Positions 38,916-43,402 of a stretch of DNA of 64,000 bases are shown one piece after another. Under the pieces are notes generated by a model, which was not told the DNA's origin, did not search any database, and saw only the letters and a list, made by a program, of their open reading frames with translations. The translations under genes were made by a program, and so were the position numbers. Numbering within the stretch: position 1 is the first letter of the stretch; each line of letters begins with the position of its first letter. Origin of the DNA: Paenarthrobacter sp. PH39-S1 (GTDB lineage: Bacteria > Actinomycetota > Actinomycetes > Actinomycetales > Micrococcaceae); NCBI RefSeq assembly GCF_030063245.1, contig NZ_JASISR010000002.1, positions 1 to 64,000 on the forward strand, given 5' to 3'.

Positions 38916-38950
38916 TATGTATTATGCATATTAAATGTATACTACACATT
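38916..38950. promoter_or_regulatory. AT-rich promoter/operator between marR and MFS genes
   Basis: A 29-bp AT-rich block bounded by TGTA and TACA contains nested palindromes (TATGCATA, GTATAC) and a -10-like TATACT at 38938-38943. It stands out from the GC-rich surroundings and is a likely MarR operator over the MFS promoter. Confidence 0.5.
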
Positions 38951-38984
38951 GAACAATTTTGAACTGCAATTCTTGAGGACCCCC

Positions 38985-40424
38985 ATGACCCAGCTGGCAA
39001 CAGCCCTCTCCCCGGTCTCGGCAACAAAGCCGCGCAACGCCGGGGTCATCATTTCCGCTTTGTGTTTCTGCGGCATCGTCGTCGCCCTGATGCAGACCCT
39101 CATCGTGCCGCTGATCCCACAGCTGCCCACACTGTTGAACACCTCGGCTTCGAACGCCTCCTGGGCCATCACCGCAACACTGCTCGCAGGCGCGGTAGTC
39201 ACCCCGGTCAGTGGCCGGCTGGGCGATATGCTCGGCAAACGGCGGATGCTGCTCATCAGCATGCTGTCGCTGATCATCGGCTCGCTTATCTGTGCGCTCT
39301 CGGCATCCTTCCCGCTGGTCCTGACCGGCCGGGTCCTGCAGGGTGCCGCAATGGGTGCCATTCCGCTGGGGATCAGCATTCTGCGCGATGAACTCCCGCC
39401 CGAGCGGGTGGGATCGGCCATGGCCATTGTCAGCGCAACCCTCGGTGTCGGCGGGGCGATCGGTCTACCATTGGCCGCCGTGATTGCCCAGGGCGGCAGC
39501 TGGCAGCTCCTCTTCTGGATATCCGCGGCCCTGGGCCTGCTCAGCGCCCTTGCCGTCATCGCCGTCGTTCCCGAATCTCCCGTCCACACCAAGGCACGCT
39601 TCGATTTCATTGGCGCGCTCGGCCTGAGCCTGGGTCTGGTTGCCCTGTTGCTCGCCGTCAGCAAGGGCAATGACTGGGGCTGGGAATCGGCAACAACCCT
39701 TGGCATGTTCGCCGCCGCCGCCGTCATCCTGGTGGCATGGGGTTTCATCGAATTGCGGACCGAGGCTCCGCTGGTGGATCTGCGGGTCTCCGCCCGCCGG
39801 CAGGTGCTCTTCACCAATCTGGCCTCGGTCATGGTCGGGTTCGCCATGTACGGAATGTCCCTTACTTTGCCGCAGCTGCTGATGTCTCCGAAAGCCACCG
39901 GCTACGGCTTGGGTCTGGACATGGTTCATGCCGGGCTGACGCTGGCGCCGGGCGGAATCATCATGATGCTGCTCTCCCCCGTTTCGGCACGCATTTCGGC
40001 CCGCCGCGGCCCGCGTATCACGCTGATGATCGGCGCGTTCGTCATCGCTGCCGGGTACTGTTTTGCGCTGCTGCTCAGTGGCGGAGTCTGGCAGATCATG
40101 GTGGCCGCAATGATCATCAGTGCGGGCATCGGTCTGGCCTATGCCTCGATGCCGGCCCTGATCATGGGGGCCGTGCCGGTCGGCGAAACAGCGTCCGCGA
40201 ACGGGCTGAATACCCTGATGCGCTCGGTCGGCACGTCGACGTCGGCCGCTGTGATGAGCGTGGTGCTCGCCAGTATGACGGTGTCGCAGGGCAGCGCTTC
40301 ACTCCCCTCCCACGCTGCATTTCAGCTGACGTTTGTGATTGGCATTGCCGCCGCCGTTCTGGCTGTTGTGCTGACTGCATTCATCCCCCGGCACACACGG
40401 TTCATTCCCCGGCACACATACTAG
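38985..40424 (+). CDS. MFS drug/solute exporter (DHA2-like)
   Basis: The start is ATG 38985, behind GAGGA; a TTG 12 codons upstream lacks a ribosome site. The 479-residue protein has about 14 hydrophobic segments and MFS motifs: GRLGDMLGKRRMLL (motif A), LTGRVLQGAAMGAIPLG and GSWQLLFWISAALGL. It resembles EmrB/QacA-type proton-driven exporters. The C-terminus ends in a seven-residue duplication (RFIPRHT). Divergence from marR suggests induced efflux. Confidence 0.9.
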   Translation: MTQLATALSPVSATKPRNAGVIISALCFCGIVVALMQTLIVPLIPQLPTLLNTSASNASWAITATLLAGAVVTPVSGRLGDMLGKRRMLLISMLSLIIGSLICALSASFPLVLTGRVLQGAAMGAIPLGISILRDELPPERVGSAMAIVSATLGVGGAIGLPLAAVIAQGGSWQLLFWISAALGLLSALAVIAVVPESPVHTKARFDFIGALGLSLGLVALLLAVSKGNDWGWESATTLGMFAAAAVILVAWGFIELRTEAPLVDLRVSARRQVLFTNLASVMVGFAMYGMSLTLPQLLMSPKATGYGLGLDMVHAGLTLAPGGIIMMLLSPVSARISARRGPRITLMIGAFVIAAGYCFALLLSGGVWQIMVAAMIISAGIGLAYASMPALIMGAVPVGETASANGLNTLMRSVGTSTSAAVMSVVLASMTVSQGSASLPSHAAFQLTFVIGIAAAVLAVVLTAFIPRHTRFIPRHTY

Positions 40425-40453
40425 TGGGCATTTGCGTTAGTTCGTCGGGGGTT
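40424..40453 (+). repeat. 30-bp inverted repeat, left copy
   Basis: Thirty bases starting GTGGGCATTTGCGTTAG match the reverse complement of 41171-41200 at 27 positions. The repeat starts at the last base of the MFS stop codon. Similarity ends sharply at both edges. Confidence 0.85.
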
Positions 40454-40573
40454 TGGATCCAGGCGGGTGGGTCGGTGGGGTGCCTTCGTCCGCAGCTGGT
40501 GCCGTCGCGATGACCGGGGTGCCGCAGCGGGGGCCCGGTCCGAAACCGGTGCCGTCGCGGGCGGACGGCCCGG

Positions 40574-40615
40574 GATCTGGCAGTGGCGATCTGGCAGTGG
40601 CGATCCGGTAGTGGC
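40574..40615. repeat. 14-bp tandem repeat, three copies
   Basis: GATCTGGCAGTGGC is present twice and then once with two changes. It lies at the start of the DUF559-like remnant. Confidence 0.85.
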
Positions 40616-40936
40616 GCTTCCCTTTTGGAGGGTGTTACCGCCCTGGACCGGATACTTGCAAGGCGCCCCCTGCCGGGAGAACTGAAATCCTGTCCTGTCC
40701 GCAGGGAGCAGATGGAAATTTCCTTGCTGCTGCTGCCGTCCGCCAGCCACATCGGACGGGTGCAGCGGGTGCTGGACTTCGCCGACGGACTCTCCGGGTC
40801 GCCCGGCGAATCGCCCAGCCGCGCTCACCTGCACATGCTCGGGTTGCCCGCACCGGAACCCCAGCACGAGGTCCGCCACGATCAGGACCGCGCTGGTTAC
40901 CTGGACTTCTACCGGAAGGTATTGCCAGGTATTTGA
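40583..40936 (+). pseudogene. DUF559/AbiEi-like protein remnant
   Basis: The translation includes EGVTALDRILARRPLPGE, VQRVLDFADGLSGSPGESPS and LGLPAPEPQHEVRHDQDRAG YLDFY. That is the middle of actinobacterial DUF559 (restriction-endonuclease-fold) proteins that often carry an AbiEi-like N-terminal domain. The N-terminal domain and the nuclease core after YLDFY are missing, and a stop occurs at 40934-40936. It is therefore a truncated relic, inside the segment bounded by 30-bp inverted repeats. Confidence 0.68.
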
Positions 40937-41019
40937 GTAACCGACAATTCGGGGGTGCGGCTGAACCGGGCATCTGCCCCATCCCGGCAGGGAACCGCCG
41001 GAGCAGGCGCCGGCTACCT

Positions 41020-41142
41020 CCGCACGGGCAGAGTCGTCGGTCTGAAGGCCGGCCGCGTCGCTTCGAACGTGGTGATGTCCCCGTGATGTCCGCTTCGTGG
41101 CGCAGCGTCAGCCCGATATCATCCAGGCCCTCCAGCAACCGC
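41020..41142 (-). pseudogene. 3-isopropylmalate dehydratase small subunit (leuD), C-terminal scrap
   Basis: On the minus strand, RLLEGLDDIGLTLRHEADIT is the LeuD C-terminal signature. After a short duplication that shifts the frame, the other frame gives TTFEATRPAFRPTTLPVR, the usual LeuD end. Only about 40 codons remain and leuC is not nearby, so this is displaced debris. Confidence 0.78.
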
Positions 41143-41170
41143 CAGCAAACACGACGAGGGACCGCAGCAT

Positions 41171-41200
41171 AACCCCCGACGAACCAACGAAAATACCCAC
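41171..41200 (-). repeat. 30-bp inverted repeat, right copy
   Basis: This is the reverse-complement partner of 40424-40453 (27 of 30 identical). It lies 45 bp beyond the recQ stop codon. Together the two enclose 717 bp of gene fragments. Confidence 0.85.
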
Positions 41201-41245
41201 TTGGAATGGCGTGATCCCTGCGGAGGCAGCGAATAGCTGCTGCCT

Positions 41246-43402
41246 TTAGCCTGCCTGCGCCAGCACCAGCGGTAACACCGCGCCGGCACCGGCCTGGCGC
41301 AGTGCCCGGCCCGCCACGGTGAGCGTCCAGCGGCTGTCCACCAGGTCATCGATGAGCAGGACAGGCTGACCGGCAAATGGTTCCAGCGCCTGTGCAAGCT
41401 CCGCGCCCACGCCGAACTGGTCCCAGACACCGGCCAAACGGTAGGCACTGTTTCCGCCGCGTTGTCCGGTGGGGCCGCCGTGCAGCAAACTCAACTCCCC
41501 CAGCAGCGGAAGATGCCCCACAGAGGAAATCCCCTCCGCCAGGGACCGCACGATGCGTGGCTTCGTGCGGGACGGAACCGCGACTATTGCCGCCGGCCTG
41601 CCCTCACCGCTCCAGCCGGACTGGCCCCAGTCCCGGAGGACCCCGACGCAGGCCTGCAGCAGGGCCGGATCGACGTCCGCATCCTCGGCCCCCGCGGCAA
41701 AGAGCGTGCGCAGCGCCCCGCCCCAGCCCAGGTCCGTCAGCCGCGAGAGGGCCCGCCCGGTTCCGTTCAACTCCTCCGGCTTGAGTTTCCCCTTGACCGG
41801 GACGCCGAGTCGGTCCATTCCGCTGGGCCACTGCAAGCGTGGCTCGACTATCACGCCGGCACGGCGGAGGGTCTCGCCCGCTTTTGACACCGCAGAGCTG
41901 TCCACCGCGTCCGAAAACCACCGGTCCGTGCAGTTGTCGCAGCGCCCGCACGGCGCAGCGGTGTCATCATCGAGCGCAGCGGCGAGGTACTCCATCCGGC
42001 AACCGGCAGTCTGCTCGTAAACGACCATCGAATCCTGCTCGTTCACGCGCGCAGCGGCAATCCGCCGGTAACGCTCCCCGTCGTATACCCAGGCCTGCCC
42101 CGTGGACCGCCAGCCGCCTGCCGCGCGCTCCACGGCGCCGTCGACGGCCAGCACCTTCAGCAGCAGCTCCAGGGGAGTCCGGCGCAGATCCACCCGGGCT
42201 TCCAAGGCCACCGTGGAGACGGGCCGACCGGCCTCCGCGAGCGCTTCGAGCACCGCGGCAGCCTTCTGCTCCGAGGGCATCGATGCCGTCGCAAAGTACT
42301 GCCAGATGTCCTTGTCCTCCGTGCCCGGAAGCAAGAGGACATCCGCGTTGGCGGACCCGCGCCCGGCGCGCCCGACCTGCTGGTAGTAGGCCACGGGCGA
42401 GGAAGGAGCACCCAAATGGAGCACGAAACCCAGATCCGGCTTGTCGAAGCCCATCCCCAGCGCGCTGGTCGCCACCAGGGCCTTCACACGGTTTTCCTTG
42501 AGCTTTTGTTCGGCCGATTCACGGTCCATCGGATCCGTCCGCCCGGTGTAGGGCAGAACCGCATGCCCCGCCTCCGCAAGCATCCTGGCGGTATCCTCGG
42601 CGGCGGAGACGGTGAGGGTATAGATGATGCCGCTGCCCGGCAGTTCGTCCAGATGTGTGAGCAGCCAGCCGAGCCGGTCGCGGGAATCAGGCAACCGGAG
42701 AACCCCCAGCCGCAGCGATTCGCGGGCCAGTCCGCCGCGGATGGTGAAGACGTCCGTTCCCAGCTGTTCCTCGATATCCGCGACGACGCGCGAGTTGGCT
42801 GTCGCTGTGGTGGCGAGTACGGGCACATCTTCCGGCAGCCGGGCGATCAGGTCCGCGATCCGCCGGTAATCGGGCCGGAAATCATGCCCCCAGTCGGAAA
42901 TGCAGTGCGCCTCATCAATCACCAGCAGACCGGTCCGGCGGACCAGCTCCGGCAGTTGGTTCTCGCGGAACGAAGGGTTTGTAAGCCGCTCCGGCGACAC
43001 CAGCAGCACATCCACCTCGTCCGCCGCAAGCGCTTCGCGCACCAGATCCCACTCGGTCGTGTTGGCAGAGTTAATGGCCATGGCGCGAACCCCGGCCCGC
43101 TCGGCAGCCGCCACCTGGTCCCGCATCAGCGCCAGCAGAGGAGACACGATGAGCGTCGGACCGGCGCCGCGGGCCCGCAGCAGCAACGACGCGACGAAGT
43201 AGACTGCCGACTTTCCCCAGCCGGTGCGCTGGACCACCAATGCCCGCCGGCCAGCGTCGACCAGCGCCTCAATGGCTTCAAACTGCCCGTCGTGGAATTG
43301 GGCGCCCGGGGAACCAACAAGTTTGCAGAGGACGGCCAGGGCCTGTTCGCGGGTGGACCGGCCGGAATCGTGTGTCTGGGGTCGAAGGCTTTGCTGCATC
43401 AT
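41246..43402 (-). CDS. RecQ-type helicase fused to a phosphoribosyltransferase-like domain
   Basis: This 718-residue protein has an N-terminal RecQ motor: Walker A RTGWGKSAVYF (about residue 60), DEAH box LLVIDEAHCISDWGHDFRP (about 163) and motif VI YYQQVGRAGRG. A zinc-binding segment follows (CRMEYL...CGRCDNC). The last about 110 residues contain VLLIDDLVDSRWTLTVAGRAL, which matches the PRPP-binding loop of phosphoribosyltransferases. The motor unwinds DNA 3' to 5' in repair. The role of the C-terminal domain is unknown. This layout recurs in actinobacteria. Confidence 0.9.
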   Translation of the reverse strand: MMQQSLRPQTHDSGRSTREQALAVLCKLVGSPGAQFHDGQFEAIEALVDAGRRALVVQRTGWGKSAVYFVASLLLRARGAGPTLIVSPLLALMRDQVAAAERAGVRAMAINSANTTEWDLVREALAADEVDVLLVSPERLTNPSFRENQLPELVRRTGLLVIDEAHCISDWGHDFRPDYRRIADLIARLPEDVPVLATTATANSRVVADIEEQLGTDVFTIRGGLARESLRLGVLRLPDSRDRLGWLLTHLDELPGSGIIYTLTVSAAEDTARMLAEAGHAVLPYTGRTDPMDRESAEQKLKENRVKALVATSALGMGFDKPDLGFVLHLGAPSSPVAYYQQVGRAGRGSANADVLLLPGTEDKDIWQYFATASMPSEQKAAAVLEALAEAGRPVSTVALEARVDLRRTPLELLLKVLAVDGAVERAAGGWRSTGQAWVYDGERYRRIAAARVNEQDSMVVYEQTAGCRMEYLAAALDDDTAAPCGRCDNCTDRWFSDAVDSSAVSKAGETLRRAGVIVEPRLQWPSGMDRLGVPVKGKLKPEELNGTGRALSRLTDLGWGGALRTLFAAGAEDADVDPALLQACVGVLRDWGQSGWSGEGRPAAIVAVPSRTKPRIVRSLAEGISSVGHLPLLGELSLLHGGPTGQRGGNSAYRLAGVWDQFGVGAELAQALEPFAGQPVLLIDDLVDSRWTLTVAGRALRQAGAGAVLPLVLAQAG

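Follow-up and report, generated by a model that had tools for sequence, protein, structure and literature searches.

What is the short island of broken coding sequence that separates two convergent genes of Paenarthrobacter sp. PH39-S1, an MFS transporter gene and a recQ-type helicase gene, and why does it start exactly on the stop codon of the former? A sequence-only reading of the window (the whole stretch of 64,000 nucleotides that was analysed) had described 30-bp inverted repeats around a patch of gene debris and offered two interpretations, a non-autonomous mobile element with captured fragments or a relic left by an unknown transposase.

The repeats are indeed present. They enclose an element of 777 bp and match at 27 of 30 bases, or at 28 of 31 with one extra base on each side. 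Among 31-base inverted pairs with a spacing of 200-3000 bp in the 64-kb window they rank first, the next independent pair reaching 25 of 31. In agreement with the earlier reading, the left repeat starts within the MFS stop codon (TAG, at its G), 45 bp separate the end of the right repeat from the recQ stop at 41246, and the debris lies on opposite strands, a leuD tail on the minus strand and a fragment of another gene on the plus strand. The name proposed for the latter, a DUF559/AbiEi-like gene, had to be given up: Pfam, NCBIfam and PADLOC lend it no support, its 299-aa relative encoded elsewhere in the genome has no match up to E=1 in any of these three collections, and the PDB returned a single chance-level match for that relative (E=0.66). 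We call it the leuD-neighbour gene; tblastn aligned residues 118-229 of the 299-aa protein to the window fragment at 56% identity. The names rsmE, hrcA, dnaJ, phoH and leuD are used for genes that we take to be these, leuD being also backed by Pfam Aconitase_C. The features of the locus are listed below, where C53 denotes a second, 1393-bp copy of the element on another contig of the same genome.

38949-40424, plus strand: MFS transporter gene (open reading frame; Pfam MFS_1), its stop completed by the element's first base
40380-40418, plus strand: end of the MFS gene, tandem-duplicated with a 21-bp period, just before the element
40422-40423, no strand: left target dinucleotide TA; joined to the G at 40424, it gives the MFS stop codon TAG
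40424-40453, plus strand: left terminal inverted repeat, IS630-type, 27 of 30 bases matching the right repeat
40424-40481, plus strand: IS630 left-end remnant, aligned to C53 1-57
40486-40531, plus strand: remnant of a second foreign segment, common to C53 and the congener contig G004:C43
40562-40924, plus strand: leuD-neighbour gene fragment with a broken frame (tblastn with the 299-aa protein of the same genome)
40574-40615, plus strand: 14-bp tandem repeat in three copies, within the gene fragment of the window copy
41020-41144, minus strand: leuD tail with an 11-bp frameshifting insertion (tblastn residues 161-198)
41144-41200, plus strand: IS630 right-end remnant, 93% identical to C53 1337-1393
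41171-41200, minus strand: right terminal inverted repeat, 27 of 30 bases matching the left repeat
41201-41202, no strand: right flank TT where TA is expected, presumably one substitution
41246-43402, minus strand: recQ-type helicase gene (open reading frame; Pfam DEAD, Helicase_C, RecQ_Zn_bind), 45 bp from the element

Judged by their sequence, the ends of the window element belong to insertion sequences (ISs) of the IS630 family (Tc1/mariner-like). The left repeat has 3 mismatches in 31 to the reference end, and three other species carry the same or similar ends. The scan for such ends returned four stretches, from Pseudarthrobacter albicanus NJ-Z5 (two contigs), Arthrobacter hankyongi I2-34 and Specibacter cremeus C1-50. 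The A. hankyongi ends enclose 1606 bp with a 413-aa transposase, a complete element flanked by CTA and TAG, and the transposase matches NCBIfam NF033545 (IS630 family transposase) with 187 bits at a cutoff of 100, as well as Pfam DDE_3. The search for a full element with a transposase and the same ends, which had been proposed, was thus successful, and the notion of an unknown transposase was rejected, the family being known from the matching ends. In P. albicanus two different sites open with CTA/GTGGGC, and their interior sequence reads like the tail of a transposase, resembling that of A. hankyongi. With at most 2 mismatches the end occurs in three of the 295 genomes of the family sample, namely our own, A. 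hankyongi (G172) and S. cremeus (G164); with up to 3 mismatches it occurs in one of the five genomes of the genus, again our own. Two further relatives of 71-72% identity were found in genome G162, with the same end type and in CTAG. A relative at 65% lies on the Rhodococcus opacus plasmid pRop44186_a, where an IS630 transposase and a small hypothetical gene on the opposite strand are annotated, a layout that resembles the A. hankyongi element.

The small open reading frame opposite the transposase (L053 3331-3645 in the A. hankyongi IS, L155 604-960 on the R. opacus plasmid) is an unstudied accessory gene of this IS630 subgroup, and that of A. hankyongi has no Pfam or NCBIfam match. In S. cremeus (L054 3329-3377) a 49-bp palindrome consists of two IS630-type ends placed back to back and is a minimal relic or a miniature element. 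Viral and plasmid carriers of the element were sought and rejected. In viral contigs the long end pattern gave 0 matches, and a shorter pattern returned five stretches, none with two ends at up to 10 mismatches in 31 and one with a single end site at 9 mismatches; among plasmids only two Rhodococcus records match C53, over query 12-148 of the left end.

Searching the genome itself (4.65 Mb, 135 contigs) with the island revealed a second two-ended place with a similar interior, C53:63151-64543, and a lone end at C88:12277, whereas the 20-base end with up to 3 mismatches occurs five times and the same pattern read backwards not at all. Other copies of the ends, including a second one with the same captured content, are therefore present, as the earlier proposal to look for them had anticipated. 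The window copy and C53 are identical in 677 of 755 gap-free columns, and their 500-bp flanks are unrelated, the similarity stopping at the repeats. The window copy lacks C53 ~58-321, ~738-1008 and 1235-1336, small gaps and a few stray aligned bases aside. Because relatives carry DNA matching the three missing stretches, the window copy is the deleted one, which has undergone three deletions since the copies parted.

The longer copy shows the plan of the element: an IS left end, about 1.1 kb of other DNA, and the last ~24 transposase codons with the IS right end. C53 1-150 matches the A. hankyongi IS at its left end (78% identity), and C53 1290-1392 matches it at its right end (76%), where the final 73 bp (~24 codons) of the transposase gene are included. 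A DDE_3 transposase is absent from the element, and since only those ~24 codons remain in C53, we regard it as an IS630 derivative and not as an autonomous member of the family.

Most of the other DNA could be traced to the leuD region. C53 423-1288 is colinear with the leuD locus of the same genome on contig C41 (65.5% over 876 columns), where leuD and the 299-aa gene are convergent and the leuD locus is intact. Given this colinearity, the leuD tail and the neighbour-gene tail are a single piece of chromosome framed by two IS ends. A counterpart of C53 184-357 lies next to a different gene in congener G004 (79%), and one of C53 184-327 likewise in congener G001 (80.5%); at least two different foreign segments are joined inside the element, 184-357 and 423-1288. 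On G004:C43 the 184-357-type segment is followed by a neighbour-gene fragment (81% over 416 gap-free columns; 75.7% by BLAST), and neither a leuD tail nor an element end was found there. Both G004:C43 and G001:C8 hold part of the interior with no recognisable ends and could be relics or a donor arrangement; for G004:C43 this would mean an older relic of the same unit or a donor-like arrangement. The captured segment on G004:C43 is cut off by a 316-bp stretch (L064 1465-1780) with 36-bp inverted ends (89%), which looks like another miniature element.

The 11-bp insertion helps to date the capture. It is present in both captured leuD tails and in none of 23 chromosomal leuD tails, which were chosen from 63 loci (60 with leuD; several genomes represented twice), and its sharing implies that the capture predates the separation of the two copies. 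In a tree of the 25 leuD tails (206 alignment columns), which draws on about 190 columns of pseudogene sequence, the captured tails group with our genome (G000), G001 and G004 at a support of 0.994, their placement inside this group being unsupported (0.171). Among the 63 loci, leuD and its neighbour were found to converge in G000, G001, G004, G028 (48% aa) and, in part, G022. Most likely, to go by these comparisons, the capture took place in this genus. The sequence-only reading was right that the fragments were captured, but the capture did not happen at this site. The captured DNA is 60-62% identical to the genome's own copy in the neighbour gene and 77-79% in the leuD tail, and the former value speaks against a recent capture. 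No closer donor outside the genus was found among the 295 family genomes with two candidates scored per genome; on the same basis 78 of the 295 match C53 at E<=1e-10, mostly in the leuD tail.

We next consider the target sites. Contig C88 breaks off next to rsmE, and C53 next to a lipoprotein gene of the GerMN type (Pfam Germane, Gmad2). These two genes are direct convergent neighbours in all four congeners, with a gap between the aligned coding ends of 8 bp in G001 and G004, 11 in G002 and 27 in G003. Our genome reads GTCAGC-TA before the element and TA-GCGCTACCAGCGG after it on the rsmE side, and closing it over one TA gives GTCAGC TAGCGCTA CCAGCGG, again 8 bp, a reading that sets aside the tandem copies on both the lipoprotein and the rsmE sides. 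The C53 site, with TA on both sides, fits a TA duplication within CTAG, where we infer that C88 and C53 join across an assembly gap. The C53 element is 18 bp away from the original stop of the lipoprotein gene and sits behind it, in a second copy of the stop region.

The window copy is flanked by CTA on the left and TTGG on the right. The earlier remark that no target duplication is obvious holds in that TA on the left faces TT on the right, but only a duplication of TA is to be expected, and a CTAG target with one A-to-T change would account for its absence. The suggested comparison with an empty site likewise succeeded for the sister copy C53 but not for the MFS-recQ site, for which none was found: in all four congeners the DNA similarity to the window stops at the recQ end, at window 41237-41248, so that the window element sits at a breakpoint of gene order. 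The MFS relative of G001 (64% aa) has a different end without the FIPRHT repeat.

Another IS630-type end, CTAGGTGCRTGGGTCRGTAGT, occurs in our genome at nine sites with up to 3 mismatches, on contigs C46, C49, C53, C57, C70, C84, C88, C96 and C99, several of them near contig ends, those on C53 and C88 included. One of the nine adjoins an IS630 transposase in C96, and on this basis CTAGGTGCRTGGGTCRGTAGT is taken as an end of a resident IS630, although a search of 5 kb of C96 did not reveal its second end. This resident IS630 seems to have landed in, or next to, the C88/C53 copy. As a mobiliser of the element it was rejected, its end being different and its transposase 32% identical to that of A. 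hankyongi. The closest transposase encoded in the genome reaches just this 32%, and the element is therefore probably stranded.

Tandem duplications beside the element were noticed by eye before they were tested, and we treat them as a lead and not as a result. The left flank of the window copy (contig C58) contains a 21-bp unit twice (window 40380-40423), the rsmE-side flank on C88 a 26-bp unit three times (L011 6200-6276), and the left flank of C53 a 19-bp unit (15/19; L009 5094-5151), just below the 80% threshold of the test; the right flank of the window copy has none. Two of the four flanks in our genome pass, against 75 of 12,696 sampled positions. Among 49 gene ends one passes, the MFS end itself. 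At the flanks in other species no tandem duplication was found (0/6).

Taken together, the second copy, the IS630 ends and the empty site of C53 support the first of the two original interpretations, and we consider it highly likely that the island is a decayed, non-autonomous IS630-type element that captured the tails of the leuD region and was copied to at least two places. As the unit has both ends and no transposase, an enzyme acting in trans would be required. Judging by the family and the sites, an IS630 transposase would recognise both ends, excise the unit and insert it at TA, with a preference for CTAG, thereby duplicating the TA. The comparison with C41 and the congeners shows that the convergent 3' ends of leuD and its neighbour, with a short further segment, replaced the IS630 middle. 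Most likely two IS630 copies or ends flanked this leuD stretch, and internal deletions left one outer end of each, whereupon the whole would have become one transposable unit. The capture, which probably took place within this genus, preceded the parting of the two copies, and the unit would then have spread to two or more sites. The insertion at the MFS gene would have gone into a CTAG that overlapped the stop codon; the G with which the element starts would have rebuilt the TAG stop and kept the reading frame closed.

The same type of element could also have acquired its interior by repair, the gap left after excision being refilled from the leuD region and a second locus by template switching, a mechanism that has been proposed for eukaryotic Pack-type elements. 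At least two foreign segments inside C53 (184-357 and 423-1288) are what such a process might produce, and tandem duplications on several flanks are what error-prone break repair could leave. However, the duplications are missing at six of six flanks of other species, both segments could stem from one donor arrangement such as that on G004:C43, and two flanking ends need no special step to take in a main stretch as long and colinear as the one observed. We regard the refilling of an excision gap as fairly unlikely and, because the captured stretch is long and colinear, favour the route by two flanking IS ends.

Neither of two explanations without a mobile element fares well. A segmental duplication or recombination that spread the leuD-tail island, with the repeats incidental, would agree with the window copy lying where gene order differs from that of all four congeners, but it is very improbable considering that the 500-bp flanks are unrelated and the similarity ends at the repeats, that the C53 site fits a precise insertion duplicating TA, and that the same ends bound an intact IS630 element elsewhere. 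The repeats might instead be a functional, non-mobile device, for example a two-way terminator between convergent genes, and both sites in our genome do lie at gene ends, with convergent neighbours at MFS/recQ and at C53/C88. Yet the arms are 717 bp apart and all four congeners are without the element at the C53 site. Moreover, CTAG is rare in the window (35 found versus 207 expected from base content) and six of the 35 fall at stop codons (49 proxy genes), the MFS site included, which helps to account for the position of the element without any function, and such a device can hardly be credited.

Most descriptions of bacterial IS derivatives that lack a transposase concern copies with internal deletions or elements that carry whole genes. 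Searches of the open-access literature brought up no IS630-derived unit in which tails of chromosomal genes had been captured. According to PMC2170065, the IS630-type element ISY100 needs only its own transposase for cut-and-paste movement, nearly always into TA, which is duplicated, and in the reference list of that paper CTAG is given as the target that an IS630 composite prefers. The element studied here resembles ISY100 and the A. hankyongi element in its ends, in the TA target within CTAG and in the transposase tail by the right end, and differs from them in having no transposase gene and a middle made of chromosomal gene tails. RUP, a very numerous element of 107 bp that inserts at TA, is proposed to be moved in trans by the transposase of IS630-Spn1 (PMC2229807). 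With RUP and other bacterial MITEs our element shares the terminal repeats and the non-autonomous state, having no transposase, related repeats, two two-ended copies and one partial end. MITEs are usually under about 300 bp, however (PMC3189936), whereas the two copies here measure 777 and 1393 bp, and they differ from RUP also in number and in their recognisable host gene tails.

Host DNA is moved by other bacterial elements too. TIME-COMPs, composites of Tn3-derived miniature elements whose transposition was shown by assay, include one that carries genes conserved in Pseudomonas chromosomes (PMC4133298). There, as here, ends without a transposase mobilise genomic DNA, which in our case is read from the sequence; but TIME-COMPs belong to the Tn3 family, produce 5-bp duplications and have a whole miniature element at each end, whereas the present element has single IS630 ends, of ~150 bp on the left and ~103 bp on the right in place of a complete miniature element or IS on each side, and encloses gene fragments. 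One-ended transposition of IS801 moves fragments of a neighbouring gene, as shown in vivo (PMC3189936), and is likewise a case of a bacterial IS moving pieces of host genes; it involves a complete IS with 290-1431 nt beyond one end, while here the fragments lie between two ends and no transposase is present.

Pack-TYPE elements, including Pack-MULEs, are eukaryotic non-autonomous DNA transposons with host gene fragments between their terminal repeats, according to PMC8903248. The leuD and neighbour-gene tails between the ends of the present element correspond to this description, although Pack-TYPE elements belong to eukaryotes and to other superfamilies, and only one bacterial unit is at hand. 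That it is a bacterial counterpart, in which faulty repair of excision gaps combined unlinked loci, the tandem duplications are scars of the same repair, and the unit settled in CTAG at stop codons, where insertion does no harm, seems unlikely. Nevertheless, chromosomal gene tails between two IS630 ends, for which the family is assigned, an intact relative and a sister copy are at hand and one empty site could be compared, offer a testable case. That the first base of the element rebuilds the stop codon also hints at the reason for repeats of this kind starting exactly at a gene end, and the element would be an example of how a simple bacterial transposon picks up and moves pieces of its host's chromosome.
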